Positions 1,430 through 63,725 of a stretch of DNA of 64,000 nt are shown here, piece by piece (positions within the stretch are counted from its first letter, which is position 1; each line of letters opens with the position of its first letter). This DNA is from Tetradesmus obliquus (Eukaryota > Chlorophyta > Chlorophyceae > Sphaeropleales > Scenedesmaceae): the NCBI GenBank assembly GCA_030272155.1, contig CP126200.1, forward strand, positions 4,910,001 to 4,974,000, given 5' to 3'. The notes below the pieces were generated by a model, which was not told the origin of the DNA, ran no database searches, and saw nothing but the letters and a program-made list of their open reading frames with translations. The position numbers were made by a program, and so were the translations under genes.

Positions 1430-4400
1430 CAGCAGCAGCAGCGCAGCAGGATGCAAGCGTAAGGAGGAGCCGTGAAAAGCATGGTAGTGCGTACGCTGAT
1501 CAAACACTTTTGGCGAGGCACTGGGCAGCAGGGCACAGCGGCGAGCAGCTGAAAGCGAAAACAGTTGCCCAACCAGCAGCAGCAGCAGCAGCAGCTCACC
1601 TTGGCCTTAGCGCGCTGCTCCTCCTCTGCCTTAGCCTTTGCCTCAGCAGCCTTGCGTGCTGCCTCCTCCTTCTCTGCCTTGATGGCAGCAAGTGCAGCAG
1701 CCTCGGCAGCAGCAGCCTCGGCAGCAGCAGCAGCAGCGCGCTCCTTGGCGGCCTTCTCCTCCTCTGCTGCTGCAGCAGCGTCCCTCTGCTTCTTGGCGGC
1801 TGCCTCGGCAGCAGCAGACTGCAACAGCAGCAGCAGCAGCAACATGAAGACCGTCCTTGATGCACAAGTATTGCAGGGTGTAATGTCTCTACATACGTGC
1901 GGCCAGTTCACAAGGTATAACCAAAATACAACAGGCGCAACACCAGCAGTGAAGGCGTTATTCCCAGCAAAATATAACGTAACAAAGTAACACGTGCCGC
2001 CGCACCTGCTCCGCCTGCAGCTTGGCCTTTGCCTCCTCCACAGCAGCCCGCCTCTTCGCCTCGGCACCAGCAGCAGCCTGAGCATCAGCGGCAGGCGGCG
2101 CTGGAACTGCACGTGGTGCTGCTGGCGCTGCTGCTGCTGCTGCAGCAGGCTTGGCAGTGGGTGGCGCCTCTCCAGCCTCTGGCCTGTCAGGCACTTGGAT
2201 CTTGGTGCCCTCACCAACCTATGGCGGCAAATTGGTAATAATATGGAGTAAAGATCATTTAGAAGGAAGATGCAGAGCAGAGTGTTGTGCTTGTGTGACA
2301 ACAACTTGCGGAGAGACAAAGGCAGCAGTGGCAAGGGACTGGCCTTCATGCCTTTGATGTTGCCGAGTATATGCGACATAAGATGGTGCCAGCATTGCGC
2401 CCTCCTGGTCCCCGAGCTTTCAGCCACCGACTTTAGCTGCCGAGTTTAGCGCACACACTAACAGCAGCACAACAGGTAACCCCCACCCACAAACATGTGC
2501 ATGCTCGTGCGCCGCAAACCGTGTTGCCGTGGATGTCTGCATGCTTGCTGCCGCCCACCTGCAGGGTGGCGCCGCCGCCAAACAGACCCGCGAAGGGCGA
2601 TGCAGCACGCTTGGGCGCTTCCTCCTCCTTCTTTGCTGCTGCTGCTGCTGGCACAGCCTTTGGCGCCTCTGCGGGCTTGGGCTGCTCCTTGGCTGCTGCT
2701 GGTGCTGCTGCCTTGGCGCCGCCAAACAGGCCTGCAAAGGGAGAGGCGGGGCGGGCCTGCTCCACCACAACCTCCTCCTCTTCCTCTTCTTCCTCCTCCT
2801 CAACAACCTGTGGTAGATGCGGTTGTGCAGCGAATGGCAAAGTTCGTGACATGTTGTTGACCCTTGGGTGTTGAGGCCAGGCGACGGCAACGCGTAAAAA
2901 ATGAAGCTGCTAGATGGCCATGTGCAGCATAAATTCTGTCAAGCAGCATGACAGTGGCATCAAAGTGTGCAGTTCAAATGGCCCAGGTCGAGCTGAACAC
3001 GGCTGGCTGCATTGGTTTTAGAGCATTGTACGCGCAGGAGCAGGTGAGCTTGCACGCGCAGCTGCAACCTCACCTGCTCCTGCTTGCGGCCGCCGAAGAA
3101 TGCGGCGAAGGGCGATGCGGGTCGGGCTGCCTCCACCACAACCTCCTCTGCAGCAGCAGCAGCAGCAGCAATGGTGGCAGCGACAGCAGCGGCCAGTAGC
3201 ATGGTGAGAACCAGCCCGTTCTGTGCCAGCAGCATAACCCTGCACGGCTCTCTCAACACAGTGATGCATACACCCCACAACTCTGCACAGCTCAGGCATC
3301 AAGATTGTCAGCGCGCACAATCCCCTGGTAACGTGCTGCTCCACATCCTGCAGACATCCAGTACCTAATCCACAGCAGCAGCCGCAGCAGCAGCAGCAGC
3401 AGCGGCTCACCCTCCTCCTCTTCCTCCTCCTCCACCTGTACTGGTGCTGCCTTGGGCCCACCAAACAGGCCTGCAAAGGGAGAGGCGGGGCGGGCAGCCA
3501 CCACAACCTCCTCCTCCTCCTCCTCCTGCTGCGGCTGCTGCTGGGCTGGCTTGGCGCCAAACAGAGCAAAGGGTGTGGCAGCCTGCAGCAACAGGAAGCA
3601 TGGCGCAGCCCAGTATAGAGGTGACTGAGTAAGCCCAGCACGCACCGCAGGTATGACTATGCACCTGCAGCAGCTACTGCTGACAAAGGTGATGAGAGCA
3701 CGAGAGGTAGGTAGAGCGCCGACGAGACTAGCTGCCAATCTCAGATTGCCCAGCGCTGCCCACCAACATACGGCCTGACAGAGCAGCACCTCACTCGCTG
3801 ATTGAGCGAAGAAACATCAAGGGGATTTGCATGGAGTGTAAAAGCGTAGGACATGCTGGGTTAATTTTCTTCTTAAACAACCCACCCGTGCCGGTGCTGG
3901 CGCCTCCTTTGGCGGGTTGAGTGCCGCCTGTGCAACTGCCTGCAGCTCCTTAGGTGACAGCAGCTCCCCTGCAGCGCCAGCCTTCTTAGCAGCCTCCAGC
4001 ACGGCACGCGCGGCAGCCTCCTGGCGGGCCTGCAGGTGACATCAAAGATGGCAAAGAACACGTAATGTTATGGCAAGAAATGATTTCGAGCGCCGGCCTT
4101 CTTGGCCGCCTGCAGCACGGCACATGCGGCAGCCTCCTGGCGGGCCTGCAGGACGCACGAGGCATGCATCATGTTGCAGAAGCGAGAGTTCAATGCCGGA
4201 AGGTTAAGAGAAGAAGTCTGAGCGCCTGGCTGTTGCGTGAGGTGATGGCAGCCGCTGACAGCTGTGAGTATGCCTTGCTGAGCGCATACAAGCTACTGGC
4301 TGGTGTTGCTCCGGTTGAGCGCCTGACACTCTACCGCTGCTGCTGCTGCCCTGGTGCAACATCATTTGCGGCTGCTGCTGACTGCTGCTCAAAACACATC

Positions 4401-6230
4401 AGCAGCAGTCTGTCCTGCTGTTCCATAGCCGCCGCCACTCACCGCCTTCTCTGCCGCCGCCTCAGCAGCCGCCAGCTCACTGCTGGCCGCCTTGCCCTCC
4501 CGCAGCACGCCTGACACCTCGCCGCGGACCTCCTTCTCAGCAGCCTGCACAGCAGCAATGCCACAAGCAGGTTAGAAGATGATAATATACCACAAAGTTA
4601 TGCCAGGCCTCTGCCCGCAGCACGCCTGACACCTCGCCACGCACCTCCTTCTCAGCAGCCTGCACAGCAGCAAAGCCACGATTAGATTCAGGGGCTGCAT
4701 GGAAGCACGGCAACAGCGGAGTCCCATCATAATCCAGGATGCTATACAGTGCATGCATGGCCAGACAGTACTGATGTCAGCATCATGAAGCACACCTGCC
4801 CTGCATGAGCTCAACATGCAGAGAGAAACTTGCAAGCGCTGCAGCACACACCTTGGCCTCCTTGAGTGCCTCAGCCAGCTGTGCCACCTTGTCTGCGCTG
4901 ATGGCCACGGCCTCCTGCGCCTCACGCAGCTGCGCCTGAGCAGCATTCAGCTCAGCACGAGCCTCAGCCTCCACCTCGGCCAGCTGCTCCTGCTCCTCCT
5001 GCAGAGCAGCAAATTGATAACAAGCGGCAGATGAACATAGGAATAGTAATTGTTGTTGATTTCAGCGCCTAAGCCTGCACCTCGGCCAGCTGCTCCTGCT
5101 CCTCCTGCAGAGCAGCAGGTACGAGTTTGGCTGTATCAATGATTGAGTTGTTATGCATTGTGGTCAACAATTGCCTCAGCCTCCACCTCAGCCAGATGAT
5201 CTTCCTGCAACTGGGCATGCGTGCATGACGATGGCGCCAACAACAGGCCCAGCAGGCCCGCAGAATACCTCTAGTGCGCATCCAATGCCTGCTGTTGCTG
5301 CTGCTGCTGCTGCTGCTGCCCACTTTGGTGATTCCAGTGGGCATGCCCTCCAGCAGCTCCGCCAGTGAGGCAGCTGACTCAACACCACCAAACTGCCGTG
5401 CACTTCAACCAAACTCAGCATCTTATGCTTGCTGCTGCTGCTGCTGCTGCCCAGCTTGGTGATCTCAGTGGGCATGCCCTCCAGCAGCTCCGCCAGCGAG
5501 CAGAAACTCAGGAACGCCAAACTTCTGAGCAGAAAAATACAAAACATTGTACAATGCATGCGTGCTGCTGCTGCTGCTGGTGCCCACCTTGGTGATCTCA
5601 GTGGGCATGCCCTCCAGCAGCTCCGCCAGCGAGGCAGCAGGCGCAGTCGTCTCCGCCACCAGCTCCAGGCACTTGTTGGTGGCCAGCTCGGGGTTCACAA
5701 GGGCAGCAGTCACCAGCTCAGCAACCTGCAGCCGGCTGACCTGCAGTGTGGAAAGAAAAAATGTCAGCAGTGGTTAGCTTTGTGTTTCTTTAGGCACTTG
5801 TTGGTGGCCAGCTCAGGGTTGACCAGTGCAGCAGTCACCAGCTCAGCAACCTGCAGCCGGCTGACCTGCGGGGTTGCAACACAGGCAGGGCAGTCGTAGA
5901 GACAGCCGCAGTTGAGAGCTGTGCACCATGCAAGCGCCGTGCTGACGAGTGCTGCAGTCACCGGCTCGGCGCCCTGCAGCAGGCTGACCTGCAGAGGGCA
6001 GGAGTGGCAGGCACGGCAGCAGCTCCTGTCTGTTCATACAATATACACGGCAAGAATAAGCTTCACCAAAGTACAGCACCAGTACACAGCATCGCACCTG
6101 GCCACCGAAGGTGGAGTCGCGGGGCTTGATGGTGAGGTTGTGCGTCTTCTTGTAGTCGTCTGTAGGGCGCTCCATGCCGCCCGGGCGCACGATGCAGTAG
6201 CTCATGCCACTACGCTCCAGCGCCTCCTCT

Positions 6231-6264
<34 letters not shown>

Positions 6265-8818
6265 TAATTTATAAAACTGTCTGTGACATGTTGGTTCATG
6301 ATGCAGTAGCTCATGCCGCTGCGCTCCAGCGCCTCCTCTGCAGCAGCAGCAGCAGCAGGAGCAGCAGCGACGGCGGCAACACGTTGCTGTACTGGGTGTG
6401 ACATGTTGGTTGATGGATGTAGTAGTTATGTCGCTGTGCCAGCTCCATCTCCTCCTCCGCAGCAGCAGTGACACGTGTTAGCGGCAGGGCACACCACGAG
6501 CCAATGAAACATGTGACTACATGTTACGTTCTGGATGCTTTCTGTGCAACTGTGAATCCGCAGCAGCATAGCTGCAGCAGGGAATGCCGGAGAAAAGCCA
6601 GAGCGTCTGGAAAAGCAGGCACGCTATACCTGGCATATGCAACCTCAGCTCACTTGTACACCACTCACTCAGCACACCCACAGCTGCTGCACACCGCAAC
6701 CTGACACATTACAGCCATCCAGGTGCGGCATACTGCAGCAAACCCCTCCTCACCTGCGCGCCGCTTCTGTGTGAGCACGCCCCAGAACAGGTTGAGCACG
6801 CCCGCAGGCCAGCCCAGCTTGCCGGTACCCAGGCTGGTCACCAGCACAAACTGCTCCACCCCGGCAGCAGCAGCAGCCTCCACCAGTGCAATGCTGCCAT
6901 CACCATCGATGCGGCGCGGGGCGGAGCTGTCCAGTGTGGCTGACTCGGGCGCACCCACGGTGCACACCACCTGGTACAAGACAGGTGCGGAAGCATGGCG
7001 ATTTGAATTGGTTGGGATTTATAAAATGCAACACACTGATTACAGGGCGGAGGAGTCAAGGGTGGCTGACTCGGGCGCACCCACAGCGCACACCACCTGT
7101 TGGCATAGCAGTGCAGTGATGCGGGCATGTCAGCATTGTTGTACTTCTGAGCATGGACACATGATCCCCGCCTGGCCGACTCTGGTGCACCCACGGTGCA
7201 CACCACCTGGTGATATTGTTGCAACACAGTGCAAGTGTGCAGGCATGTTAGCATCGTTGTCGTTGGAGGCATGCAGTGTGCGTGCTCACATTCAACCCCC
7301 TGCTGCTGCTGCCAACAGGCTACTGCTGCTGCTAGATACCCCAAAGGTACCAGCAGCTCACCCTGCTGGCACTGCCAATTGCAGCAGCTATGCTCTCCGG
7401 CTCCTCCAGGTCAAACTGCACCCACTGCGCCGCTGGCCATACAGTATGCTGCAGCCCATCCAACCACTTTGCTGTCCCCTTTGCAACAGCACGTCCATAG
7501 CCTGTGGCTGTTTGCCACCCTGCTAGTCAAATAGCCCCGGCACGATTTACATCCTACCTCACAGTACCAAAACCCAAGCTGCTCAACAATCGCGTCCAAG
7601 TTCGCATTTAAACTCACCCTGATGGCGCTGCCAATTGCTGCCGCCATGCCCTCGGGGTCCTCAGGTCAAAGTCCACCCACTGCAGCCGCTGCAGCTGCTC
7701 CGGGGCCAGAAGCCCACTCACTCCATCCGGCCTGCTGTCTTTGCCACAGCTCGCCCATGGCATGCAGTGGTTCGCTACCCTGCTCGTCCCCTCATGCAGC
7801 CCTGGCACTCCTTCACCTCCACCCCCACACTGCAATATAACCAAGCTGCGCAACACTGCTACCTCACAAACTCACCCTGCTGGCGCTGCCAATGGCGGCC
7901 GCCATGCCCTCCGGCTCCTCCAGGTCAAAGTCCACCCACTGCAGCCGCTGCAGCTGCTCAGGGGCCAGCAGCCCAAACTGCACCGCGATCTCCGTGTTGG
8001 ACTTGGCAGCGTCCACGTCACGTGCGCCAGCACGCACCTTGAAGCCCGAATCCAGCAGCTCCCTGCAGAAACATGGCCATGGCAGTTATTATACGGTTCT
8101 ATTACGGCTCCAGGCAGATGCATGGTCCGTACGGCAGATGTGTGGCGCTGCGCTAGGGAGGCGTTCTGAATGGCGCCGCTGATGATGACCTGCTGCTGCG
8201 TCCACGTCGCATCCAGCAGCTCCCTGCAGGAACATGGCCATGGCAGTTATTACACTTCTGTTACGGCTGCAGGCAGAGATGCAGGGTCTCTACGGAAGAT
8301 GTGGGTCACTGTCCCCAGATGGGGCGTGTGAACTGGGCTCTGTGATGAAGATCTGCTGCTGTGGTAGGGCAGCGTGCCGAGCGAGAGTGTGTGTGCCACT
8401 TTTGACTACCTATGGCTGCTACCTGCGGCCCCTCATGCCTCTACTCTTTTTTGATATGCAATGTCAAGCATGTAAATGATATGTTTCGGCAGAGGCTGAC
8501 GGTGCAATGTGCTGCCCCGCTACAACCAATATGCTTGCACGTTGTGCCTGTCCACGCAGCTGATGCTGCATCCGTGGCACACACAGTTGCTGCCCCTGTT
8601 GCCCCTGAGTTGGTCAACATGCAGCGCTGCAGTGCAGCTGCAAATGTAACTCCGTCTCAGCTCTGCTGCTGGCCAACCAGTGTCTTGCTGCTGCACTGCC
8701 AGTAATGTTTTGTACTGCTGCCACGCCACCACAGCATATGTGCTGCTGCTGCTGCCTTCACTGCTGCAGCTGCTTTTCTGTAACTCTGTGCAGCGGGCGC
8801 TGCCGTTGCGGCTGCTGC

Positions 8819-8851
<33 letters not shown>

Positions 8852-9668
8852 TTCTGCTGCTTCTGCTGCTGCTGCTGCTGCTGCCCTTCCTACCTGAGCA
8901 CACGGGCACCCAGGCGGCCAGTGGCACCAGCAAGGAACACCTGCAGGCACACGCAGCAACAGCACAGCGTTGCTGAGCACTGTCTCGCAGCACTAGCAGC
9001 CTTACAGAGCTAGCCCCGTGCATCATTTGCATTGATTTGACCATGCACTTGCAGATGCACTGTGCTGCGCGCTTGCTGCAGCACAGCAGGGCGCTTGTAC
9101 TGCTGCTGCACTCTCTGCTGTACTGCCTCAGCACTGCTGCTCAGCAGCAGCTCCTTGCAGCAACTGCTTCGCAAGATACGGCTTAGAAGTACTGTCTCCC
9201 TCAGCAGATGCTGTGGCTGTAGCATTGTGTTACTCACAGTCCTGGGATCTTTGGGTCCCTTCTTGGGTGCTGTTGCCTTGGTTGACAGCGTGCCAATTGA
9301 GCGGGTGATGGTGCCCAGCAGCCCACCCAGGCCTCCCTCTGAGCTGCCACCACCTCCCAGCTTGAAAGTTCCTGCAAGCGACGCTAACTCAGTGCCTGCT
9401 TGCTGTTGGTGACTAGCAGGTGTGTGCACAGTGCTGCCTGCTCACCCGTCTTGCCAGCCTCAGAACGAATGGCGACGCGCCTGCGGCTGCATTGACCCGG
9501 CCTGTAAACAAACGTACACAGTGCATCAGCAAGGTAGCTCGCTGCAATGTGCACTAGTGGGCACCTTAGGTGCTGATGCGAGTGTGCAAGGCACCTGAAG
9601 GGCTGAACTACGCTCTGGCGTAGCCCAGGCGCAGCTGGCGCCTTGACTGGATTGACGGTAAGCTTCAT
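340..9668 (-). CDS. TIC62: TIC62-like NAD(P)-binding protein with a long alga-type C-terminal tail
   Basis: Eighteen exons keep phase: 9595-9668, 9446-9501, 9238-9371, 8894-8940, 7876-8062, 6754-6970, 6098-6228, 5588-5740, 4852-4998, 4443-4544, 3886-4029, 3411-3582, 3074-3147, 2559-2807, 2006-2218, 1600-1818, 990-1352, 340-753 (1031 aa). Residues 1-43 look like a plastid transit peptide (Arg/Ser-rich, ending VAIRSEAG). A Rossmann fold follows with AGATGRLG near residue 92. The segments VTSLGTGKLGWPAGVLN, RPGGMERPTDDYKKTHNLT and LQVAELVTAALVNPEL match plant Tic62, a redox-linked subunit associated with the plastid inner-envelope translocon that binds ferredoxin-NADP reductase. The tail (334-1031) is unlike the plant one. 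It has a Glu/Ala-rich probable coiled coil (334-464), acidic-VVV-ARPASPFAGLFGG modules (465-629), an Ala/Lys/Glu helix (701-894) and two NVAEARxWIANWK motifs near 898 and 964. Family identity is secure. The exon order of the low-complexity tail is less certain. Confidence 0.92.
1373..1441. repeat. Long CAG/CTG microsatellite in a TIC62-like intron
   Basis: About twenty near-perfect CAG triplets on the plus strand. On the sense strand of the gene this is a CTG run in the intron upstream of exon 17. It is the longest pure triplet run in the first 10 kb. Confidence 0.9.
4087..4151 (-). repeat. Extra copy of TIC62-like exon 11 acceptor edge
   Basis: An acceptor followed by about 55 bases reads ARQEAAACAVLQAAKKAGA. 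This is almost the start of exon 11 (ARQEAAARAVLEAAKKAGA), but the reading stops matching afterwards. It sits in the intron upstream of the real exon. Confidence 0.85.
4616..4667 (-). repeat. Extra copy of TIC62-like exon 10 acceptor edge
   Basis: This repeats the acceptor and first codons of exon 10 (AAEKEVRGEVSGVLR), then diverges. It lies upstream of the full exon at 4443-4544. Confidence 0.85.
5077..5214 (-). repeat. Two extra copies of TIC62-like exon 9 acceptor edge
   Basis: Copies at about 5077-5116 (EEQEQLAEVQA) and 5169-5214 (QEDHLAEVEAEA) repeat the start of exon 9 (EEQEQLAEVEAEA). The outer copy is the more diverged. Confidence 0.8.
5323..5503 (-). repeat. Two extra copies of TIC62-like exon 8 donor edge
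   Basis: ASLAELLEGMPTEITK plus the donor, which ends exon 8 at 5588, recurs at about 5448-5503 and 5323-5368 inside the next intron. Each copy is followed by a GT and a CTG run-derived region on the plus strand. Confidence 0.85.
5791..5994 (-). repeat. Two extra copies of TIC62-like exon 8 acceptor edge
   Basis: VSRLQVAELVTAALVNPELA recurs at about 5791-5871. A more diverged copy reading VSLLQGAEPVTAALV lies at about 5947-5994. Both are upstream of the full exon 8 (5588-5740), so this exon has duplicated edges on both sides. Confidence 0.85.
6299..6466 (-). repeat. Two extra copies of TIC62-like exon 7 acceptor edge
   Basis: EEALERSGMSYCIM recurs at about 6299-6346, with a shorter decayed copy (EEEMELAQRHNYY) at 6424-6466. 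Both lie upstream of full exon 7, and the nearer one keeps its CTG-run acceptor. Confidence 0.8.
7042..7214 (-). repeat. Two extra copies of TIC62-like exon 6 acceptor edge
   Basis: VVCTVGAPESA, the start of exon 6 at 6970, recurs at about 7042-7101 and 7170-7214. The copies are in frame for 11-18 codons and then lose similarity. Confidence 0.85.
7354..7712 (-). repeat. Two extra copies of TIC62-like exon 5 donor edge
   Basis: The end of exon 5 (LQWVDFDLEEPEGMAAAIGSAS plus donor, in part) recurs at about 7615-7712 and 7354-7437. The 7615 copy carries a one-base shift relative to exon 5. The 7354 copy reads VQFDLEEPESIAAAIGSAS. Confidence 0.85.
8212..8277 (-). repeat. Extra copy of TIC62-like exon 5 acceptor with its intron
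   Basis: About 65 bases covering the first codons of exon 5 and the adjoining intron (compare 8049-8115) are repeated here at high identity. The duplicated block spans the junction rather than the exon alone. Confidence 0.8.
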
Positions 9669-20007: not shown

Positions 20008-20045
<38 letters not shown>

Positions 20046-21837: not shown

Positions 21838-23947
21838 CTGCCTGCAGATCAAGCTGCCGCGCGTGTCTGGCATCGTGCTGCGTGAGCGCTACAAGCAGAT
21901 GAGCTACGTGCCCGTCAGCAAGGCAAGGTGCGGCGCTGGCTGAGCACAGCAGCAGCTTTGTTGCAGTAGGAAGTGTGCTGACACATTGTTTGCAGTCACA
22001 TGCTGAGCCGCCAAGCTAGAATTTGTAGCAGCGTGCCCGTCAGCAACGCCAGGTGCGGCGCTGGCTGAGCACAGCAGCAACATCAGCAGCAACCATGATC
22101 ATAGTACAGCTGCATGCTGGTTCGTCCAGCAAGTCATTATGGAGGCAGACATAGAGTTGTGCTGTAAAAGTAATCCAATGTTTGGGACTCAGCACGCATG
22201 CTTCATGACTGCCTTCCGCAGGGACTGTGTTGCCCTTGCCCATGCTGCCTGGTGGTGGTGGGCGTGCTGGTGCAGAAGGCCATCGGGTCCACCTCGCCTG
22301 ACACTTCTGACTCAACTGAAATGCTGCTTGCAGGGACTAAGTGGCTCCTGCCAGCGCTGCCTGGGTGATGGTCACCAAGCCTCTGACACTGCCGCTGCTC
22401 TCTGCTGCCCTGCTGCCTGCAGGAACTACGTTGCGCCTGCCAACGCCGCCTGGGTGGTGGTGGGCGTGCTGGTGCAGAAGAGCATCGGCAGCACCAGCGC
22501 AGGTGCACCCTACAGCAGGTGGCGGCTGTCTGATCTGTCCGGCAGCGACACCTGGCTTGCGCTGTTTGGGGACGCACACAAGGAGCACTACGCAGAGGTG
22601 CGGTGCACGAGGCTTAACAATTTGTTGCAAGGGTTCCAAATTTGAAGATCGCACGGGGCCACTGCTGCTGCTGCAGACCCACTGCAATCATCATGCGTTA
22701 CTTGCACCCATGTTGGGTGCTTCACCAGCTCTCAAACTTGCAAAAGTTCAAATGTTTGCTGCTGCTGCTGCTGCTGCTGCCCGCAGGCTGAGGGCTCAGT
22801 GCTGGCCTTCTACAGCCCGCGCTTTGCAGCCAAGGGCCCCGGCAGCAGCAGCAGCAGCGGCGGCGGCGGCGGTGGCCTGGCAGTGTCACAGGCCAGCCAG
22901 GTGGAGCGGCTGGCCAGCTCAGCGGGTTGGGGCTTCTGCAGGGGCAGCACAAAAGCCGGTGCGTGGATGCTGTTTGATCATCGAGCTTCCAGAAATATGT
23001 TTGCTCGACTGACTTGACTGAATATTGTTGGGGTTGTGATATAAAACACAGCCTGAGGACGCTGGCAATGTGCGTGGCTGCTGATGATGCATGAAAGCGG
23101 ATGCGCTCAGATACTTTGGGTGATAATTAGGCATGCAAGGCATGCCACAGTTCTACGTATGGCATGAATGCACCACTCTCACAGAATTGTGTGTTGCGTT
23201 GCCGTCTGCAGGTTCAAGGTGCACCAATGCCGTGGACACCACTGTCAGCCAATTCTGCCAGTACCACGCGCTGCAGCAAGCCAAAACACTACGGAAAGCA
23301 CCCACCTTGGCCAGCAGAGGCAGCGGCAGCGGCAGCAGCAGCGGGGGGCTGCTGGGGCCGCGCAGCCAGGCAGCAGCAGCAGCCATGCAGTCTGGCGGCG
23401 CTGGGCAGCATACTGCAGGTGAGAGGAGGCAGCAGCTGCTGCTGAACAACACTGTGTTGGTTCTGTTTGCTAAGCTTTCTGTGCTACATGCTATTGTCAT
23501 CTACTGTATGTGTGTGTGCAATGCTGCTCCAGGGAGGACAGCTTGCTCTGCTGTGTATTGTGCGTATGCTGTGTATGCTGCATATGCTGTGTATGTTGTG
23601 TATGCTGTGTATGTGCTGCTGTAAGCCTTGGCATCTGCTGTTGAACGTGGCAGCATCCATCTGCTGCATTCTCCCCGGCCGGCCACGCTGACTGAGAGCT
23701 ACAACTGCGCCTTCTATTTGTGTGCCCTCGCTCTGTGGATATGCTGTGCAAATCACTTTTTCTCACCTGTTGGTGTTGTTGAAGCATCCATCTGCTGCAT
23801 ATGCAAAATGCATTTTCCCCGGCCGGCCGTGCTGACTGACGACTGCCACTGCGCCTTCCTATCTGCATGTTGTTGCCCTGCAGCCGCCAACAGCGGCAAG
23901 GTGTATGATGCCCGCAGCAACACCTGGAGCACAACTAGCAGCAGCAC

Positions 23948-26851: not shown

Positions 26852-27018
26852 GACCACTGTGCAGCTGTTGTATTGGTGTATGCGCACACAATGCATTTGA
26901 TAGATGTGTGTGATATAGCTGCGGCTTTTCTGGCCATCTGTGGCTTGATGAAGGTGATTTAGCAGCAAGCGGCCTCTGATATGCATGGCGCTTTTGCCCA
27001 TGGGTTCTGGCCGAAATA

Positions 27019-27752
27019 GCGCTGGTGGATCTGCGAAGCCTGCGGCTGGCGGCTCAGCACACTACGAGAAGTGATGCCCAGCAAGCGCTGCCCCAAGTGC
27101 AGGGACCCTGGGGTGCTGTTTAGGGCCAAGAGTGCGTATGCAGGGTCTAAGCCTATGCTGGTGAACCTTGAGGCGGCAGTAAACCCCATGGCGAGCAGGG
27201 ATGGCATGCTGGCACGTGGTACAGAGCACGCCTTCTGCCTGCAGAACTCGATTTGAGCTCGGCTTGCGGCAGGGTGCAGATGGTGCGCTGCTGTGTTTGC
27301 AACGGTGTACAGAGTGTCTGACAGCAGCTGTCTTTGTGAATTACTGGAACTGTGTGAAGTACTTGTTGGCAGGGCTTTCAGTAACTGCGGAAGCGCCTAG
27401 TGTGCAAGCCGCTGCTGGTGAACCCTGAGGCTGCAGTAAACCCCATGGCCAGCAGGGATGGCATGCTGGCACGTGGCATGGAGCACGCCTTCTGCCTCAG
27501 AATTCGATCTGAACTCGGCTTCAGACAGGCTGCAGATGGTGTGCTGCTGTGTTTGGAAGGGCGTATATAGTGCGTGACTGCGGCAGCTTTTGCACTTTGC
27601 TTGATGATTACCAGGGCTCTCAGGAACTGCGGAAGCGCGTAGTGTTTAAGCCGCTGCTGGTGAACCCTGAGGCGGCAGTAAACCCCATGGTCAGCAGGGA
27701 TGGCATGCTGGCGCGTGGCATGGAGCACGCCTTCTGCCTGCAGAACTCGGTA
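27019..27752 (+). pseudogene. Three partial copies of the MCM10 terminal exon
   Basis: Downstream of the MCM10 stop, 27019-27256 repeats the last 79 codons from RWWICEACGW to LQNSI and stop, with few changes. Shorter copies of the extreme 3' end (VNPEAAVNPMxSRDGMLARG) follow at about 27403-27510 and 27640-27752. The copies keep frame but have no upstream exons, so they are probably untranslated or 3' UTR sequence. Confidence 0.9.
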
Positions 27753-32506: not shown

Positions 32507-32543
<37 letters not shown>

Positions 32544-49317: not shown

Positions 49318-52300
49318 ATTGCTTGCTGCGCTGCCAGTGATCAGCATTTGTTGTCTGGCAGGCGCGCCGCAAGCAACGGCCTCGCCTGTGCTCGCGTGGT
49401 TTCACCAAAGCAGATGATCATTGCTGCCTGCAGCTCCTGCAGTTGAGACACCGCTTTGCGCAGCGCAGGCTGCCTTCGCCTGTGTTTCGCTGCAGGCGCT
49501 GTTGATTGTGGGCATGTTTACTGGCATGCCAAACATGCCTGCTGCGCTGCCGGCCGTCTGTGTCTCAGCGGCTGTTGTCTCGCAGGTGTGTACAGCAGGC
49601 AGCAGCAGCAGAATGTGTGTGCAAGCAGGCGTGCCGCAAGCAGGGGCCTTGCCTGCGCTGAAGCTGCGTGCTTCACCACAACAGATTATCAGTGCTTCTT
49701 TCAGCTCCTGCAGTTGAGAGGACACCAGTTTGCGCAGCGCAGGCTGCCTTCGCCTGTGATTTGCTGCAGGCGCTGTTGATTATGAGCATGTTTGATGGCA
49801 TGACACGCATGCTTGCTGCGCTGCCGGCCGTCTGTGTCACAGCGCCTGTTGTCTTGCAGGTGTGTACAGCAGGCAGCAGCAGCACATTGTGTGCGCAAAC
49901 AAACGCGCCGCAAGCAGGGGCCTTGAAAGGCAGTTGCCTGCGCTTGCGCTGCGTGCTTCACCACAGCAGATGATCATTGCCGCCTTCAGCTCCTGCAATC
50001 AAGACACCAGTTTGCGCAGCGCAGGCTGCCTTCGCCTGTGATTTGCTGCAGGCGCTGTTGATTGTGAGCATGTTTGATGGCATGACACGCATGCCTGCTG
50101 CGCTGCCGGCCGTCTGCGTCACAGCGGCTGTTGTCTTGCAGGTGTGCACAGCAGGCAGCAGCAGCACATTGTATGCGCCAACAAACGCGCCGCAAGCAGG
50201 GGCCTTGAAAGGCAGTTGCCTGCGGTTGCGCTGCGTGCTTCACCACGGCAAATGATGCTGCCTTCAGCTCCTGCAGTCGGCACCAGTTTGCGCAGCGCAG
50301 GCTGCCTTCGCCTGTGATTTGCTGCAGGCGCTGTTGATTGTGAGCATGTTTGATGGCATGACACGCATGCTTGCTGCGCTGCCGGCCGTCTGTGTCACAG
50401 CGCCTGTTGTCTTGCAGGTGTGTACAGCAGGCAGCAGCAGCACATTGTGTGCGCAAACAAACGCGCCGCAAGCAGGGGCCTTGAAAGGCAGTTGCCTGCG
50501 CTTGCGCTGCGTGCTTCACCACAGCAGATGATCATTGCCGCCTTCAGCTCCTGCAATCAAGACACCAGTTTGCGCAGCGCAGGCTGCCTTCGCCTGTGAT
50601 TTGCTGCAGGCGCTGTTGATTGTGAGCATGTCTGATGGCATGACACGCATGCTTGCTGCGCTGCCGGCCGTCTGTGTCACAGCGCCTGTTGTCTTGCAGG
50701 TGTGTACAGCAGGCAGCAGCAGCACATTGTGTGCGCAAACAAACGCGCCGCAAGCAGGGGCCTTGAAAGGCAGTTGCCTGCGCTTGCGCTGCGTGCTTCA
50801 CCACAGCAGATGATCATTGCCGCCTTCAGCTCCTGCAATCAAGACACCAGTTTGCGCAGCGCAGGCTGCCTTCGCCTGTGATTTGCTGCAGGCGCTGTTG
50901 ATTGTGAGCATGTTTGATGGCATGACACGCATGCTTGCTGCGCTGCCGGCCGTCTGTGTCACAGCGCCTGTTGTCTTGCAGGTGTGTACAGCAGGCAGCA
51001 GCAGCACATTGTATGCGCCAACAAACGCGCCGCAAGCAGGGGCCTTGAAAGGCAGTTGCCTGCGGTTGCGCTGCGTGCTTCACCACGGCAAATGATGCTG
51101 CCTTCAGCTCCTGCAGTCGGCACCAGTTTGCGCAGCGCAGGCTGCCTTCGCCTGTGATTTGCTGCAGGCGCTGTTGATTGTGAGCATGTTTGATGGCATG
51201 ACACGCATGCTTGCTGCGCTGCCGGCCGTATGTGTCTAAGCGCCTGTTGTCTTGCAGGTGTGTACAGCAGGCAGCAGCAGCACATTGTGTGCGCAAACAA
51301 ACGCGCCGCAAGCAGGGGCCTTGAAAGGCAGTTGCCTGCGCTTGCGCTGCGTGCTTCACCACGGCAAATGATGCTGCCTTGCCAATGATGCTGCCACGCA
51401 TGCCTGCTGCGCTGCCGGCTGTCTGTGTCACAGCGGCTGTTGTCTTGCAGGTGTGTACAGCAGGCAGCAGCAGCAGATTGTGTGCGCAAACAAACGCGCC
51501 GCAAGCAGGGGCCTTGAAAGGCAGTTGCCTGCGCTTGCGCTGCGTGCTTCACCACGGCAAATGATGCTGCCTTCAGCTCCTGCAGTCGGGACACCAGTTT
51601 GCGCAGCGCAGGCTGCCTTCGCCTGTGATTTACTGCAGGCACTGTTGATTGTGAGCATGTTTGATGGCATGACACGCATGCTTGCTGCGCTGCCGGCCGT
51701 CTGTGTCACAGCGCCTGTTGTCTTGCAGGTGTGTACAGCAGGCAGCAGCAGCACATTGTGTGCGCAAACAAACGCGCCGCAAGCAGGGGCCTTGAAAGGC
51801 AGTTGCCTGCGCTTGCGCTGCGTGCTTCACCACAGCAGATGATCATTGCCGCCTTCAGCTCCTGCAATCAAGACACCAGTTTGCGCAGCGCAGGCTGCCT
51901 TCGCCTGTGATTTGCTGCAGGCGCTGTTGATTGTGAGCATGTTTGATGGCATGACACGCATGCTTGCTGCGCTGCCGGCCGTCTGTGTCACAGCGCCTGT
52001 TGTCTTGCAGATGTGTACAGCAGGCAGCAGCAGCACATTGTGTGCGCAAACAAACGCGCCGCAAGCAGGGGCCTTGAAAGGCAGTTGCCTGCGGTTGCGC
52101 TGCGTGCTTCACCACGGCAAATGATGCTGCCTTCAGCTCCTGCAGTCGGGACACCAGTTTGCGCAGCGCAGGCTGCCTTCGCCTGTGATTTGCTGCAGGC
52201 GCTGTTGATTGTGAGCATGTTTGATGGCATGACACGCATGCTTGCTGCGCTGCCGGCCGTCTGTGTCTAAGCGCCTGTTGTCTTGCAGGTGTGTACAGCA

Positions 52301-54318
52301 GGCAGCAGCAGCACATTGTATGCGCCAACAAACGCGCCGCAAGCAGGGGCCTTGAAAGGCAGTTGCCTGCGGTTGCGCTGCGTGCTTCACCACGGCAAAT
52401 GATGCTGCCTTCAGCTCCTGCAGTCGGGACACCAGTTTGCGCAGCGCAGGCTGCCTTCGCCTGTGATTTGCTGCAGGCGCTGTTGATTGTGAGCATGTTT
52501 GATGGCATGACACGCATGCTTGCTGCGCTGCCGGCCGTCTGTGTCACAGCGCCTGTTGTCTTGCAGGTGTGTACAGCAGGCAGCAGCAGCACATTGTGTG
52601 CGCAAACAAACGCGCCGCAAGCAGGGGCCTTGAAAGGCAGTTGCCTGCGCTTGCGCTGCGTGCTTCACCACAGCAGATGATCATTGCCGCCTTCAGCTCC
52701 TGCAGTCGGGACACCAGTTTGCGCAGCGCAGGCTGCCTTCGCCTGTGATTTGCTGCAGGCGCTGTTGATTGTGAGCATGTTTGATGGCATGACACGCATG
52801 CTTGCTGCGCTGCCGGCCGTCTGTGTCACAGCGCCTGTTGTCTTGCAGGTGTGTACAGCAGGCAGCAGCAGCACATTGTGTGCGCAAACAAACGCGCCGC
52901 AAGCAGGGGCCTTGAAAGGCAGTTGCCTGCGCTTGCGCTGCGTGCTTCACCACAGCAGATGATCATTGCCGCCTTCAGCTCCTGCAATCAAGACACCAGT
53001 TTGCGCAGCGCAGGCTGCCTTCGCCTGTGATTTGCTGCAGGCGCTGTTGATTGTGAGCATGTTTGATGGCATGACACGCATGCTTGCTGCGCTGCCGGCC
53101 GTCTGCGTCACAGCGCCTGTTGTCTTGCAGGTGTGTACAGCAGGCAGCAGCAGCACATTGTGTGCGCAAACAAACGCGCCGCAAGCAATGGCCTTGAAAG
53201 GCAGTTGCCTGCGCTTGCGCTGCGTGCTTCACCACAGCAGATGATCATTGCCGCCTTCAGCTCCTGCAATCAAGACACCAGTTTGCGCAGCGCAGGCTGC
53301 CTTCGCCTGTGATTTGCTGCAGGCGCTGTTGATTGTGAGCATGTTTGATGCCATGACACGCATGCTTGCTGCGCTGCCGGCCGTCTGCGTCACAGCGCCT
53401 GTTGTCTTGCAGGTGTGTACAGCAGGCAGCAGCAGCACATTGTGTGCGCAAACAAACGCGCCGCAATCAGGGGCCTTGAAAGGCAATTGCCTGAGCTTGC
53501 GCTGCGTGCTTCACCACGGCAAATGATGCTGCCTTGCCAATGATGCTGCCACGCATGCCTGCTGCGCTGCCGGCTGTCTGTGTCACAGCGGCTGTTGTCT
53601 TGCAGGTGTGTACAGCAGGCAGCAGCAGCAGATTGTGTGCGCAAACAAACGCGCCGCAAGCAGGGGCCTTGAAAGGCAATTGCCTGCGCTTGCGCTGCGT
53701 GCTTCACCACGGCAAATGATGCTGCCTTCAGCTCCTGCAGTCGGGACACCAGTTTGCGCAGCGCAGGCTGCCTTCGCCTGTGATTTGCTGCAGGCGCTGT
53801 TGATTGTGAACATGTTTGCTGGCATGCCACGCATGCCTGCTGCGCTGCCGGCCGTCTGCGTCACAGCGCCTGTTGTCTTGCAGGTGTGTACAGCAGGCAG
53901 CAGCAGCACATTGTGTGCGCAAACAAACGCGCCGCAAGCAGGGGCCTTGAAAGGCAGTTGCCTGCGCTTGCGCTGCGTGCTTCACCACAGCAGATTATCA
54001 TTGCCGCCTTCAGCTCCTGCAATCAAGACACCAGTTTGCGCAGCGCAGGCTGCCTTCGCCTGTGATTTGCTGCAGGCGCTGTTGATTGTGAGCATGTTAT
54101 ATGGCATACCACGCATGCTTGCTGCGCTGCCGGCTGTCTGTGTCACAGCGCCTGTTGTCTTGCAGGTGTGTACAGCAGGCAGCAGCAGCAGATTGTGTGC
54201 GCAAACAAACGCGCCGCAAGCAGGGGCCTTGAAAGGCAATTGCCTGCGCTTGCGCTGCGTGCTTCACCACGGCAAATGATGCTGCCTTCAGCTCCTGCAG
54301 TCGGGACACCAGTTTGCA
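49318..54318. repeat. Satellite-like array of about 282-bp units
   Basis: Sixteen anchors (gcgctgttgatt or variant) lie at 49496, 49770, 50052, 50328, 50610, 50892, 51168, 51639, 51921, 52199, 52477, 52759, 53041, 53323, 53794 and 54076. Spacings are 282, 276, 278 or 274 bases; two 471-base gaps equal one full unit plus a 189-base unit deleted at the same place. Two subtypes differ around the cacagcagatgatcattg versus cacggcaaatgatgctg segment, and blocks of units recur, giving higher-order structure. The first unit is diverged and lacks about 45 bases. Because 282 is divisible by three, long frames appear on both strands, but each unit carries a stop in the main frames. Confidence 0.97.
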
Positions 54319-55190
54319 CTGCACAAGCACAAGCACAGGCATGCTGCAGGGGTTGGGGCTGCCGCAGCTGCTGCCAGCATCATGATGCAGGGTGATCAAC
54401 CACCGAGCAGCAAGTCTTGATGACATATGAACATAACCATACGGCACATTCTGTCATATAAACTGCTCTATCCACTACTGCTGCAACAAGCAGGACACCG
54501 CAACCGGACCCTCACTGTCGCCTGCAGCTGCAGCGTCCACGTCCATGTCCTGCGGAGCGCTGCGAGGTGCGGGATCGACCAGGGGGCATTTTTCAGGGCC
54601 ATGCTAAAGGTTGAACTGCGTTTTCTGCCGCGGGTCTGGCCGCTGGCACCTTCTACAATGTCTCGTCAACTCCTTGCCGTTTGTGTCAAAGACGACGACA
54701 GCTTTGTCAAACTCGGTGCCTTTGGCGCCTTTCTCAATCATATGAACGTCACGGAATACACATAGCTGGCGTGTGAGAGCTGAGCCAGAGAACCAGAGGG
54801 AAGGCCGGCAGCTAGTAGAGTGGGTGCTTGCGCACTCGAAAGCAACATTGATGCGGTATCATAAATAAATTATATGCAGGTGGGCTTAGGATGTGTGTGG
54901 CCTCCTGATGGATGCTGCAAGGGCAGTGTAACTAGTTACTGACAGTCAGTGGGGGTCTCTTGACAGGCCCACGTCATGTCTGCCTCATGCTGACATAAAG
55001 CCACCATGCAATCATTGGCTTGTGCACATATGTTGCACCGAGCACTTGCAAAAGCGGTTTGCATGGCTTCGACATCATGTGTGAGTTGCTGTGTCTGGAG
55101 GCATCCTGAAGCTGCAGCTCCGCTCATGTTCCCCCTGAAAAACTAAATGTAAGATGGTATGAATAGATATTTTTGCAGTGAGAGGGGGGC
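54319..55190. other. Spacer after the array with a possible exon fragment
   Basis: On the minus strand about 54592-54757 reads DVHMIEKGAKGTEFDKAVVV and FDTNGKELTRHC before a stop, which looks protein-like. I could not find a partner exon or a family. The rest shows nothing. Confidence 0.3.
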
Positions 55191-55199
55191 CAATGGCTT

Positions 55200-59269: not shown

Positions 59270-61119
59270 ATGTTCCGGTTGCTGTCTGCCTCGCACTTGG
59301 CCAAATGGTCATTAGTGCTCACGCAACACAGCAGCCAAGCGCTAAGCAAGGGTCGCTCGTTGCACCATGGAAGGCCTAGGCCAGCTTTACGTAAGCTGCT
59401 GGTAGCCAACAGGTACCGACCTCTGCTGCCTTGGACAGACGTCCACATCAGCAACCTAGCACTCGTCCATGCATTGAGATCCTGGGTGCTGCTATCGTTG
59501 CTGCCATTACCAACATCCATTCAAGCAACGAATGTGATTTATTACAGCCACTTGCCAGCGAAGCTGCCACACCTGAACTCACCAGGCTGCAGTTTGTACT
59601 GCTGTGACATTTCCTTGCTCACGATCCCCACACACTCTGCCACACATCCACCACCATCCACCTCTCTCTATTAATCCTCTTACTCCCCCAGCTACACTCA
59701 CCACACTGCACCCTACTGCTGTCCTGCAGGGGAGAGATTGCCTGCAGGGTGCTCACGACAGCAAGGCGCCTGGGCATCCCCACAGTCGCTGTCTTCAGCG
59801 AGGCAGACAGGCAGGCCAAGTTTGTGGCGCTTGCTGACGAGGCCTTCTGCATCGGGCCGCCTCCTGCAAGGGAGTCCTACCTGAGGGGAGACGTCATCCT
59901 GGGAGTGGCCAAAAAGACCGGGGCAGACGCCATCCACCCAGGTATATGATTTCCAGAAGACAGTGACAGGAACCACAGCTACACCACAAATATGTGTCAT
60001 GTTTTGCGACAGGCATGTGAAGACGCAATCTACCCAACTGGCATGCTTGCAGGAAGCAGTAAACGGATGTGTAGTGTGACAGGATTTGTCATCCCAGGGC
60101 AGTGCCTGTCTCGAGGCGGAAAAAGACGGGCGCAGATGCCTCAGACCCAAACGCTTGCAGGAACTAGCTATACACAGGCCTGGGATTGCAGGCTACACGA
60201 GCTTGGTGGCGTTCGTGTGCAGTGGACCCTTGGCTGACACTTGGCAGCGTCGGCCCAGCAAAGTCATATAGCTTGTCGTTAGTAGCGCAAGATGCAGTGC
60301 TGTTTTCATGCTGTTGGTCACCACAACTGCCAACACAAGCAGTTCCGTCCTCGTGCTGTTATTGCTGCTACTGGTACTGTTGCTACTGCTGCAGGCTATG
60401 GCTTCCTTTCTGAGAATGCAGCCTTCTCAGAGGCCTGTGCAGCAGCTGGGATTGCCTTTGTTGGGCCGCCCGCAGCAGCCATCAGGTCAGGGCAAGAGGG
60501 TTTGCTGTTGCTCCACAGCATTTTAACTAACAGGATCCCCGCAGCAGTCGTGACGCGCCACTGTTGCTGTGCACTTGCAATCAGCCGGCCCTACCATTGG
60601 TACCAGCACTAGCACTATGCAGTTGCCTGCAACCCACAGAGTCACAGTTGCTCAGCTTGCACCAACAGTATGCTGCCATCAGCATAACCTGCACCTTCGT
60701 AAACTCGTGCTGATCTGCACATGACACTATGCAGCTGCCTCTCCACCTGCCTGCGCGACCACTTGCCTGCCTGGTGCTCACATGCCTGCCTGCTTATCTG
60801 CAGGTCCATGAGAGACAAGTCTCAGGCCAAGGCCGTCATGTCATTTTGAATTACTGCCCAACTGGCTGGCTAAGAGCAACTGCCTGGCTGACTGCTGCCC
60901 TGCTGCAGGTCCATGGGAGACAAGTCGCAGGCTAAGGCCATCATATCTGCTGGCCTGATGAACTGCTCAATGGGCTGGCTGACTAACTGGCTGGCTGGCT
61001 GGCTGGCTGCTGCCCTGCTGCAGGTCCATGGGAGACAAGTCTCAGGCCAAGGCCATCATGTCTGCTGCTGGCGTGCCAGTGGTGCCGGGCTACCACGGGG
61101 AGGAGCAGGAGCAGGCACG

Positions 61120-61153
<34 letters not shown>

Positions 61154-61507: not shown

Positions 61508-61559
<52 letters not shown>

Positions 61560-63371
61560 GCGGTGCTGTTTTGTGTGCCGCAACCACTGCTCCTGTCTGA
61601 GGTGTAGGTGACGCGCACCGTGTGTACTGGCAAAATGATAGCACCGTTGCATGTGCAACGGCAACGTGGGACCAGCAGCTGCAGGCTTTAGGCAGGATGT
61701 ACAGTGCAGCATTGCTGAACTTGCTGGCGCTGCTGCTGCTTCTGCTGCTGCTGCTGCTGCAATTGTGCAGTCCGAGCTGTCCAACGCCATCGCCTCAGCG
61801 CGGCGCGAGGCTGCTGCCTCGTTTGGCGACGACCGGCTGCTGCTGGAACGCTACATCACGCGCCCACGCCACGTGGAGGTGCAGGTGAGCAAAAATTTGT
61901 TATCAGTAAAGTTGTATTTTGCATGTCAGCAGAGGTTGTGTGACAGATGCACACGCCGGCGCCATGTGGAGGTGCAGGTGCGGTTTAGGGGTTTTGGCAG
62001 ATGCAGGAAGGCCGGCTGTACGTCGTGTTTAGATGCAGGTGTGGCGCTGCCGGCCTGTGCTGGGCGAGTGCAGGTGGGGCTGCTGCTGTTAGTGATCGGA
62101 GATTGCTGGGAAATCTTGGGTGAGGGCGTGTGCAGGTGCAGGTGCACAACAGCTGGCTTGTGCTCATGCTGAACACAAATCCCGTTGAGTTCATTTGGTT
62201 GCGCTGTTGCAGGTGATGGCGGACAAGCACGGCACTGCGCTGTACCTGTTTGACCGCGACTGCAGCGTGCAGCGCCGCCACCAGAAGATCATCGAGGAGG
62301 CGCCCGCGCCAGGTAAGGTCCTACCACAGTGTTTTAGCCTTTTCTTTTATTTATCAAATGTACATGTGAAAGTAGAGCTTGGCAGTGCACGCCAACATGC
62401 TTGCCGCCAGAAGATCATCGAAGAGGCGCCAGATGGGGCGCAGCCGCAGTTTCCAGCTCCTGCAAGCTTCGTGACACGTCAAGTAGACGCATGCGGCACA
62501 CTCGCCACTGCAGCACAGCTCAAGCTGCTCACATCGTCTGCTGGTGGTGCCAGTAGCAACATCTGACCACTACATTGTACTTGGCAGTGTTGTGTTATCA
62601 CGCCACACCGCAAACTAAGGTGCCTGAATGCCCTGACCCTGCCGGACCAGCTGCGAAGGGTCACCCGTTCTTTTTCCTGATTTGTACAACATATGCCCCC
62701 GCAGGCCTGCCGGCGGAGTTCCACGCGCATATTGGCGAGGCTGCGGTGCGTGCGGCGCGCGCCGTGGGCTACGAGTCTGCTGGCACTGTGGAGTTCATCG
62801 TGGATGTGGACACGCAGGACTTTTACTTCATGGAGATAAACACGCGCCTGCAGGTTTGTCTCTGGTGGTGGGCTGCGTGTGTGTGGTCATGTGGAATGTG
62901 ACTGGTTGCATGTGGAGTTTGTCGTGGATGTAGACACACAGGACGTTCACTTCTTGGAGATGAACACGCGCCTGCAGGTGGGCCTGCAGGTGTTTTGGTA
63001 GATCAGTTGGCCGTGCGGGGATGCGCACGCGTGTGCAGATGGACCAACAAACTGCCGCTTTCTACTGCCACAAGCGGAAGGCTGGCTAGATGAGGCCTTC
63101 ACAGGCCTGGTGCAGCTGCTGCTGCTCATCAACCAGGTTATGCGATCCTTGGCATTGTGTCAGTAACAGTATCCTTGCTGTCTGCAATCACAGGTGGAGC
63201 ACCCTGTGACAGAAGCCATCACAGGGCTGGATCTTGTTGAGCTGCAGCTGCGTGTGGCTGCGGGCGAGCGGCTGCCGCTGGCGCAGGCTGACCTGGCTGC
63301 TGCTGGGCCGCGGGGGCACTCTTTCGAGGCGCGGCTGTACGCAGAGAACACACGGCGGCAGTTCCTGCCTG
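59270..63371 (+). CDS. MCCA: 3-methylcrotonyl-CoA carboxylase alpha subunit, 5' part (continues beyond window)
   Basis: Nine exons keep phase: 59270-59412, 59730-59941, 60395-60485, 61024-61119, 61410-61503, 61771-61884, 62213-62312, 62705-62853, 63194-63371 (392 aa so far). MCC alpha carboxylates its biotin in mitochondrial leucine breakdown. Residues 1-38 ([17 protein letters not shown]..., Arg/Ser-rich) look like a mitochondrial presequence. The biotin carboxylase domain follows: [51 protein letters not shown], Gly-rich loop SGGGGKGM (199-206), [58 protein letters not shown] and [12 protein letters not shown] rather than propionyl-CoA carboxylase is favoured by GDKSQAK, PGYHG and REAAASFG. 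Later exons and the biotinyl domain are not seen in the last 630 bases, which hold exon 9 edge copies. Confidence 0.94.
60800..60955 (+). repeat. Two extra copies of MCCA exon 4 acceptor edge
   Basis: Acceptor plus [12 protein letters not shown] (about 60800-60838) and [15 protein letters not shown] (about 60903-60955) precede full exon 4 at 61024. All three acceptors follow a ctgctgccctgctgcag-type or similar tract. Confidence 0.93.
61950..62985 (+). repeat. Extra donor-edge copies of MCCA exons 6, 7 and 8
   Basis: Copies are RRHVEVQ plus donor at about 61950-61982 (exon 6), RQKIIEEAP at 62405-62443 (exon 7) and [20 protein letters not shown] (exon 8) at 62904-62985. Each lies downstream of its parent exon, inside the following intron. 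Confidence 0.88.
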
Positions 63372-63416
63372 GTGCGTGTGGCAAGCTCTGAGGTTGTGGA
63401 CCAGGGTGCAGGGTGT

Positions 63417-63725
63417 GCGGAGTTTTGGTGGTGGGGGCACTCCTGCAGAGCACGGCTGTACATGGAGAGTTTTGGTGGTGGGGGCACTCCTGCAGAGCAC
63501 GGCTGTACATGGAGAGTTTTGGTGGTGGGGGCACTCCTGCAGAGCACGGCTGTACATGGAGAACACGCGGCGACAGTTCCTGCCTGCTGCGTGTGGCAAA
63601 GCTCAGGCTTTGGGGCAGGTTTCAGGGTTTGCAAATCTAGGGTCGGGGTGGGGGAGGAGGGGGGCACTGCAGCGGAACACGGCTGCATGCAGAAAGCACG
63701 TGGCGGCAGTTTGTGCCTGGTGGGC
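63417..63725 (+). repeat. 47-bp x3 tandem plus further copies of MCCA exon 9 donor edge
   Basis: Three 47-base units starting near 63421, 63468 and 63515 each echo the exon 9 end (gcact...gcacggctgtac...gaga). The third runs on into [14 protein letters not shown], matching [15 protein letters not shown] fourth, more diverged copy lies at about 63660-63725. Confidence 0.92.

Follow-up and report, generated by a model that had tools for sequence, protein, structure and literature searches.

Junction-crossing copies of exon edges in the introns of Tetradesmus obliquus: local tandem duplications that cluster at splice junctions

Introduction

In tandem exon duplication, and in mutually exclusive exons, copies of an exon adjoin that exon. 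The copies described here are blocks that cross one splice junction and recur in the adjacent intron. They were studied in a 64,000-nucleotide stretch of the green alga Tetradesmus obliquus (GCA_030272155.1, contig CP126200.1, positions 4,910,001 to 4,974,000 of the forward strand; the whole stretch is called the window below) and in further stretches of the same genome. These junction copies are real, common and quantifiable, and they extend beyond the window.

Several described systems lie close to this one. A potato RdRp gene gained an intron by tandem duplication across an intron-exon boundary, and a cryptic donor made the new spliced intron, as shown by RNA reads; the case concerns a single gene (PMC4974935). 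The same source presents the Rogers/Hellsten model, in which a duplicated exon segment containing AGGT yields an intron, and Drosophila cases appear in another paper (PMC2891723). Introners change intron content on a large scale in many eukaryotes (PMC9860276). Our literature search found no account of exon-edge copies as a genome-wide feature among the matches listed, which is not proof of absence.

Data sets and definitions

The assembly comprises 104.66 Mb in 17 contigs at 57.1% GC; the published T. obliquus genome is given as 107.7 Mb at 57% GC with a mean intron of 462 bp (PMC5966456). The window and 20 stretches of 10 kb formed a first data set of 264 kb. A hold-out of eight further stretches (80 kb) was analyzed with the gene model and thresholds frozen, and both sets together cover 344 kb; L-numbers label 10-kb stretches outside the window. 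Genes were modelled ab initio by a splice-aware gene finder written for this analysis and trained on the first data set, where it returned 326 exons, 224 of them confident (at least 60 nt, with a coding score above 12). For each edge of a confident exon, a query that took 40 nt from the intron and at most 150 nt from the exon was aligned to the intron next to that edge, and the edge counted as copy-bearing at a score of at least 60; the null compared the same edges with introns of other loci.

Exon edges recur in the adjacent intron

A copy was found in the adjacent intron at 61 of 363 edges in the first data set, as against 6 of 2178 null comparisons, and at 18 of 83 hold-out edges, as against 4 of 498. 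Pooled, the two data sets have a copy at 79 of 446 edges. The copies obey a side rule that the preliminary description of the window had proposed from its letters, with acceptor-edge copies upstream of the real exon and donor-edge copies downstream. Among 278 first-set edges with introns on both sides, the copy lay on the edge's own side in 46 and on the opposite side in one; the hold-out values were 18 and 0 of 64. Orientation is nearly always direct. Self-comparison of the window outside its two satellites gave 62 pairs, all 62 direct and 32 of them spaced 94-161 bp. A direct pair within 600 bp was present in 14 of the 20 first-set stretches and absent from six, and inverted pairs occurred only in L010, which has two. 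Copies are very unevenly distributed among stretches (permutation heterogeneity p 0.0012): 12 of 20 first-set stretches have at least one edge at a score of at least 50, and six of eight hold-out stretches have at least one at a score of at least 60.

Local duplications were also counted as families of direct pairs up to 700 bp apart. The 25-bp satellite, the 282-bp satellite and short-period repeats were excluded; the 25-bp satellite inflates the intron-only class. Exons missed by the gene finder would enter these counts as intron. The 344 kb contain 119 such families and four near inverted pairs. In 77 of the 119, one member crosses a confident exon edge and another lies in non-coding DNA, whereas random placement of the same families in 300 runs gave 29.0 on average and 42 at most. 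Intron-only families number 18 against 41.6 expected, and intergenic-only families 2 against 17.5. The junction class is likewise in excess outside the window (53 of 84, 21.6 expected), in the hold-out alone (17 of 25, 4.2 expected) and among the 35 families with a best identity of at least 93% (28 at junctions, 8.7 expected; three intron-only, none intergenic-only). Over the sequence covered, junction-spanning duplicates exceed chance.

Copy-bearing introns are longer. Of 185 introns of 60-2000 bp lying between consecutive confident exons, 50 bear copies, with a median length of 622 bp compared with 323 bp for the others. Length and copy number show a rank correlation of 0.43 and a slope of 116 bp per copy, and copies make up 8.5% of intron bases. 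The earlier suggestion that duplication could account for intron growth is supported as a correlation only.

Anatomy of the copies

Anatomy was studied at 56 edges of the first data set, taking at each the nearest copy that aligned over 25 or more exon columns. In 46 of these the copy lies 77-170 bp from the original (median 117, standard deviation 19.8), and 13 of the 56 spacings are divisible by three. The exon part of aligned copies is mostly 25-100 nt, and no whole-exon copy was found among 123 aligned, with the limit that the query held 150 nt of exon, so that exons longer than 150 nt could hide them.

Most nearest copies keep their splice signal, as the preliminary description had noted for several. 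The dinucleotide is retained in 49 of the 56 nearest copies (GT in 24 of 30, AG in 25 of 26), the median donor score is 5.9 against 6.5 for real sites and the median acceptor score 5.1 against 7.3, and 44 of 56 sites outscore the bottom tenth of real ones. On paper, the copies would offer competing splice sites; the claim that they do so at nearly every exon shrinks to the 79 of 446 edges given above.

Past the junction, the copies differ. A gap-tolerant test against a null classed the intron flank as related to that of the original in 33 of 56, ambiguous in 5 and unrelated in 18; at an exon identity of at least 0.94 the numbers are 13, 1 and 10. Unrelated flanks occur even beside some exon halves that are 95-100% identical, and the exon halves are equally similar in both groups, with a mean of 0.925 for unrelated flanks (n=18) and 0.919 for related ones (n=33; p 0.69). 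Splice-site scores are lower in the unrelated-flank group (4.7 versus 7.2). In these 18 cases the boundary of homology falls in or near the splice-site consensus, and in 17 of them GT or AG stands exactly at the boundary, compared with 1 in 16 by chance; these copies therefore originated as junction copies. One copy, at junction 9300 of L024, stops exactly at the exon end without a GT. Dissimilarity of the spacers in 17 window pairs had been considered as a disproof of tandem duplication, an argument dropped for most copies when tests that allow for gaps recognized the flanks as related, first in 26 of 56 (p up to 0.05) and then in 33. No recurring element was seen by eye in 85 spacers, of which those of at least 25 bases were compared with the 264 kb of the first data set; outside their own locus they gave short matches of 15-61 nt, the best having an E value of 1.4e-7 over 29 nt.

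Multiple copies form arrays of whole units, each an exon arm plus a spacer, with the outermost exon arm lying beside an unrelated flank. At junction 3861 of L014 the spacers of four copies and of the real exon are related (that of the real exon was only ambiguous in the flank test), and the last copy is flanked by unrelated sequence. Junction 7320 of L007, which has a few copies that match the exon exactly, is the mirror case. At junction 2413 of L026, six units lie head to tail. The array extends over about 1828-2485 (minus-strand coordinates). Its six units measure about 116 bp apiece, and every one contains an acceptor along with about 72 nt of exon sequence. The gene finder models two of them as in-frame exons (66 and 63 nt), so that some arrays may be coding. 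Contrary to the preliminary description, copies nearer the exon are not clearly more alike: on first-set edges the nearest copy beats the farthest on 16, loses on 11 and ties on 2.

Decay and coding signal

Decay was counted over 140 copies at 73 edges, with low-complexity copies left out. Mismatches at the three codon positions number 189, 191 and 439 (7.2, 7.3 and 16.8%), there are 65 frame-breaking indels, and codons differ between copy and exon by 364 synonymous, 321 non-synonymous and 10 stop changes. This pattern is close to that of a neutral copy beside a constrained exon. An impression gained by eye, that differences are mainly synonymous (17 of 23) and might reflect coding constraint, was not upheld for the whole set over 105 and then 140 copies; a modest third-position excess persists after the larger count. 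In the same 140 copies, an exon codon ending in A or T differs in the copy in 35-40% of cases and one ending in G or C in 10-16%, as if the exons had lost silent-site G/C still present in the copies.

Origin of the copies

We favour, with a probability of roughly 55%, a tandem duplication that crosses the junction, followed by recombination anchored on the selected exon half; the odds of this and of the rival explanations overlap, as they are not exclusive. A short tandem duplication, with a unit of about 80-170 bp, would span one splice junction and place in the neighbouring intron a half-exon, that is, one splice site and some 25-100 nt of exon. Usually lacking the opposite splice site, such a copy would be tolerated as long as the original junction is used, presumably through exon definition, and the real junction is probably the one spliced in this species. 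The real exon edge would then act as a recombination arm under selection while the other arm drifts. Repeated exchange or slippage between exon arms would gain or lose whole units of exon arm and spacer, partly renewing the exon half as spacers diverge, and introns would lengthen in steps of about 116 bp, holding decaying half-exons with splice sites. The junction excess, the direct orientation, the side rule and the near-neutral decay are observations.

The repeated tandem duplication proposed in the preliminary description agrees with direct orientation, the 77-170 bp spacing, the related flanks and the arrays, but simple decay afterwards is insufficient. Flanks have become unrecognizable in copies whose exon halves are no more divergent, and age alone therefore does not fit. 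If exchange with the real exon, whose edge is under selection, renewed the exon halves, this would account for both the equal identity and the kept GT or AG, and selection on the copies' splice sites would fit the kept dinucleotides too. Arrays are seen to end in an exon arm, each copy goes with greater intron length (a correlation), and exon identity is unlinked to flank relatedness; exon-anchored exchange is a plausible reading of these features.

Several points weigh against our preferred explanation. No exchange event was seen, and the renewal of exon halves rests on the unrelated-spacer cases; where copy-to-copy spacers are recognizable, they are by eye broadly as similar as the exon halves, with exceptions both ways. 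A conserved exon arm prolongs the visibility of junction families and inflates their excess, an effect that the 93% identity cut-off reduces and does not remove. Longer introns give more room for copies, so the link between length and copy number need not be causal. The gene models come from our own gene finder, whose training used the first data set, and they have known errors: neighbouring genes were merged, and one exon of a DRG1 GTPase gene was extended through a spacer into a copy. Finally, the third codon position holds a share of 0.536 of mismatches (bootstrap by edge 0.490-0.585; hold-out 0.597), rising to 0.573 in copies without a frameshift from 0.482 in those with one. Third-position changes are 2.42 times the number predicted from positions 1 and 2 once base composition is allowed for, against an expected maximum of about 2. 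Part of the copies may thus have been coding for some of their history.

The rival that survives best is plain tandem duplication anywhere in genes with neutral decay, the junction bias coming from one conserved arm. Related flanks in 33 of 56 copies and the near-neutral decay agree with it, and a conserved exon arm must, by reasoning, slow visible divergence. It is nevertheless unlikely: exon identity is equal whether flanks are related or not, unrelated flanks stand beside some exon halves that are 95-100% identical, and even families of at least 93% identity remain mostly junctional.

Splice junctions could instead be mutation hotspots at which transcription or splicing triggers duplications through nicks, R-loops or repair synthesis. 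The scarcity of intergenic-only and intron-only families and the homology boundaries at the splice-site consensus in the 18 unrelated-flank cases are what hotspots would leave. Selection anchoring one arm can give the same bias, however, and in 33 of 56 copies related flanks extend well past the junction, so that breakpoints are not confined there; we consider hotspots as the source distinctly doubtful.

That the copies are functional, as alternative exons, decoy splice sites or regulators under selection, seems improbable. The retained dinucleotides, including those of 17 of the 18 unrelated-flank copies, the 2.42-fold third-position excess and the two L026 copies modelled as in-frame exons are all in keeping with function. 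So are copies that differ from the exon almost only at third positions, at junction 2273 of L014 and junction 5507 of L033 (0, 0, 7 by codon position at both). The frame is broken 65 times in 140 copies, however, positions 1 and 2 mismatch equally, no more than 13 of 56 spacings would keep a multiple of three, and none of 123 copies spans a whole exon (within the reach of the 150-nt query).

Insertion of exon fragments as templated filler in break repair, or of reverse-transcribed pieces, could explain the 18 unrelated flanks and the L024 copy that ends at its exon without a GT. Such an origin is hard to square with 17 of 18 copies bearing GT or AG exactly at the boundary, with the almost exclusively direct orientation and with the 33 related flanks, and we regard it as very improbable. 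An artefact of assembly or gene finding, suggested by the ab initio models and the few copies identical to the exon at junction 7320 of L007, is scarcely credible, as most copies differ from the exon in a codon-periodic pattern impossible by misassembly, copies recur in 12 of 20 first-set and six of eight hold-out stretches, and the DRG1 and TIC62-like models match relatives' proteins except in copy stretches.

Genes and copies of the window

The preliminary description counted more than 40 copies and placed them in all six multi-exon genes. A comparable number, 42, reach a score of at least 50; eight of these are of low complexity or score below 55, and the strict remainder of 34 lies on 23 of 98 edges in five of the seven blocks into which the window was split for this count. 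No copy passing the strict criteria was found in the gene at 42.5-48.7 kb or in the block at 8.7-20.2 kb. CAG/CTG runs are frequent across the whole window.

The gene richest in copies encodes a TIC62-like NAD(P)-binding protein (340-9371, minus strand; PF13460), with exons modelled from 8062 down to 340 and a further exon at 9371-9238. The latter matches the N-terminal part of a relative's protein, P0121, and the gene probably has further 5' sequence. Twelve strict copies occur on 8 of 26 tested edges within 340-8110, all on the minus strand, and none at the edges of exon 9238-9371. Single acceptor-edge copies lie at 4089-4152 (exon start 4029, identity 0.91), 4614-4679 (start 4544, 0.95), 5067-5117 (start 4998, 0.96) and 8208-8255 (start 8062, 0.94). 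Exon start 5740 has a first acceptor-edge copy at 5792-5869 (0.95) and a second at 5945-5994 (0.84), and exon start 6970 has two at 7045-7099 (0.89) and 7173-7211 (0.92). Donor-edge copies, first and second, are found at 5425-5500 (0.96) and 5299-5374 (0.93) for exon end 5588 and at 7610-7716 (0.93) and 7357-7435 (0.89) for exon end 7876. Another acceptor-edge copy on this strand, at 6297-6368 (start 6228, 0.94), contains a CTG run that exceeds the low-complexity limit and is outside the 34. The relative's proteins P0121 and P0122 are two products of the TIC62-like gene that diverge after LKEAK, and P0122 resembles intron retention at the intron that carries copy 4614-4679 in the window. Window positions 1-3600, at the 3' end of this gene, hold coding sequence very rich in alanine and glutamate.

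The DRG1 GTPase gene (modelled span 29354-34022, minus strand) has an acceptor-edge copy of its last exon (start 29587) at 29668-29743 (0.91) and another, of exon start 31199, at 31313-31356 (0.86). Exon end 30534 has a first donor-edge copy at 30409-30459 (0.94) and a second at 30314-30357 (0.87). The 3' part of the exon with modelled end 31669 is copied at 31562-31606 (0.89) and again at 31450-31499 (0.82), these copies too being on the minus strand. Edge 31669 itself belongs to a copy, a model error, and the true exon end seems to lie near 31774. The downstream copy, which has Tyr as in yeast, was considered as the functional edge and rejected: the closest algal protein, P0001, has Asp, and the first (Asp) edge was therefore taken as real. 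The next two proteins, P0002 and P0003, have Asn at this position. Among the top-ranking homologs of DRG1 and the TIC62-like protein, those labelled with an organism are mostly from green algae. By eye, the closest relatives' proteins (P0001 for DRG1, P0121 for TIC62-like) cross the compared junctions without copy residues. Both are apparently transcript-derived, judged by their record names, and the relatives may lack the copies.

On the plus strand, a putatively MCM10-like gene, a piece of which gave no Pfam match, has for exon start 22423 acceptor-edge copies at 22322-22372 (first, 0.84) and 22209-22286 (second, 0.82). Exon start 25689 and exon end 25803, on the same strand, have two each: 25524-25635 (0.84) and 25396-25477 (0.76) for the acceptor, 26013-26064 (0.92) and 26167-26233 (0.85) for the donor. 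Exon start 26519 is copied at 26399-26462 (plus, 0.92). Larger direct repeats at 26613-27749, 240 bp at 93% with an offset of 405 and more matches at offsets 662 and 908, span the 3' end of the MCM10-like gene.

The other modelled genes include a BT1-family transporter (PF03092), a biotin carboxylase (PF00289, PF02786) and a 5-FTHF cyclo-ligase (PF01812). In the BT1-family gene, exon end 36195 has plus-strand donor-edge copies at 36280-36328 (first, 0.85) and 36652-36687 (second, 0.94). Further plus-strand copies lie at 37584-37639 (acceptor, start 37742, 0.96, with an unrelated intron flank), 38499-38597 (donor, end 37919, 0.85) and 40986-41053 (donor, end 40901, 0.88). A 25-bp unit in 18 perfect copies occupies 37980-38433, within a modelled intron of the BT1-family gene. 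A second satellite, at 49401-54328, has about 18 copies of 274-282 bp (some 193 bp); many of them contain an open stretch of 90 nt, bordered by signals resembling splice sites, that the gene finder picks up. In the biotin carboxylase gene, exon start 61024 has acceptor-edge copies at 60880-60952 (first, 0.93) and 60798-60842 (second, 0.96), and donor-edge copies follow at 62902-62979 (end 62853, 0.86) and 63527-63625 (end 63371, 0.80), all on the plus strand.

Meaning and comparison with known systems

With a conserved exon as reference, it is possible to count, align and date each copy. Within a single genome, and apart from transposable elements, this could allow direct measurement of how introns grow, how duplicated splice sites are tolerated and what pattern neutral mutation follows. 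The copies also carry a warning for annotation, as gene finders can take half-exons for exons, as happened here in DRG1. A wider reading would have exon edges serve as recombination arms anchored by selection, and possibly as hotspots of duplication too, driving intron length up like a ratchet by about 116 bp per step genome-wide and leaving spare splice sites behind. It is tentative, with the odds leaning against it; if true, the spare sites would be a source of new exons and introns.

Tandem exon duplication involves the whole exon, with both splice sites and the frame kept. The copies described here are half-exons with one splice site and a frame that is often broken; none of 123 is whole and 65 frame-breaking indels occur, with possible exceptions in L026. 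Introners (PMC9860276) also differ, in that the present copies are local and derive from the neighbouring exon, and their spacers have no recurring element among the loci examined. The Rogers/Hellsten model (PMC4974935, PMC2891723) shares with our case a local tandem duplication that includes exon sequence and splice sites. In that model the duplication is internal to an exon and yields a new intron as long as the unit, whereas in T. obliquus one arm belongs to an intron, and the intron that is longer was already present. The nearest known case is the potato RdRp gene (PMC4974935), where, as here, a tandem duplication took in the 3' portion of an intron together with the 5' portion of the exon that follows it, and the splice signals were inherited. 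Unlike that single gene, T. obliquus has such copies at 79 of 446 edges, mostly without an obvious new exon. The copies are direct and adjacent, as expected of tandem duplication (119 direct families; 46 of 56 nearest copies spaced 77-170 bp), and the duplicated segment bears splice signals, as in intron gain (GT in 24 of 30, AG in 25 of 26). What T. obliquus shows is local tandem duplication in a variant form, one that is enriched at splice junctions and associated with intron length.

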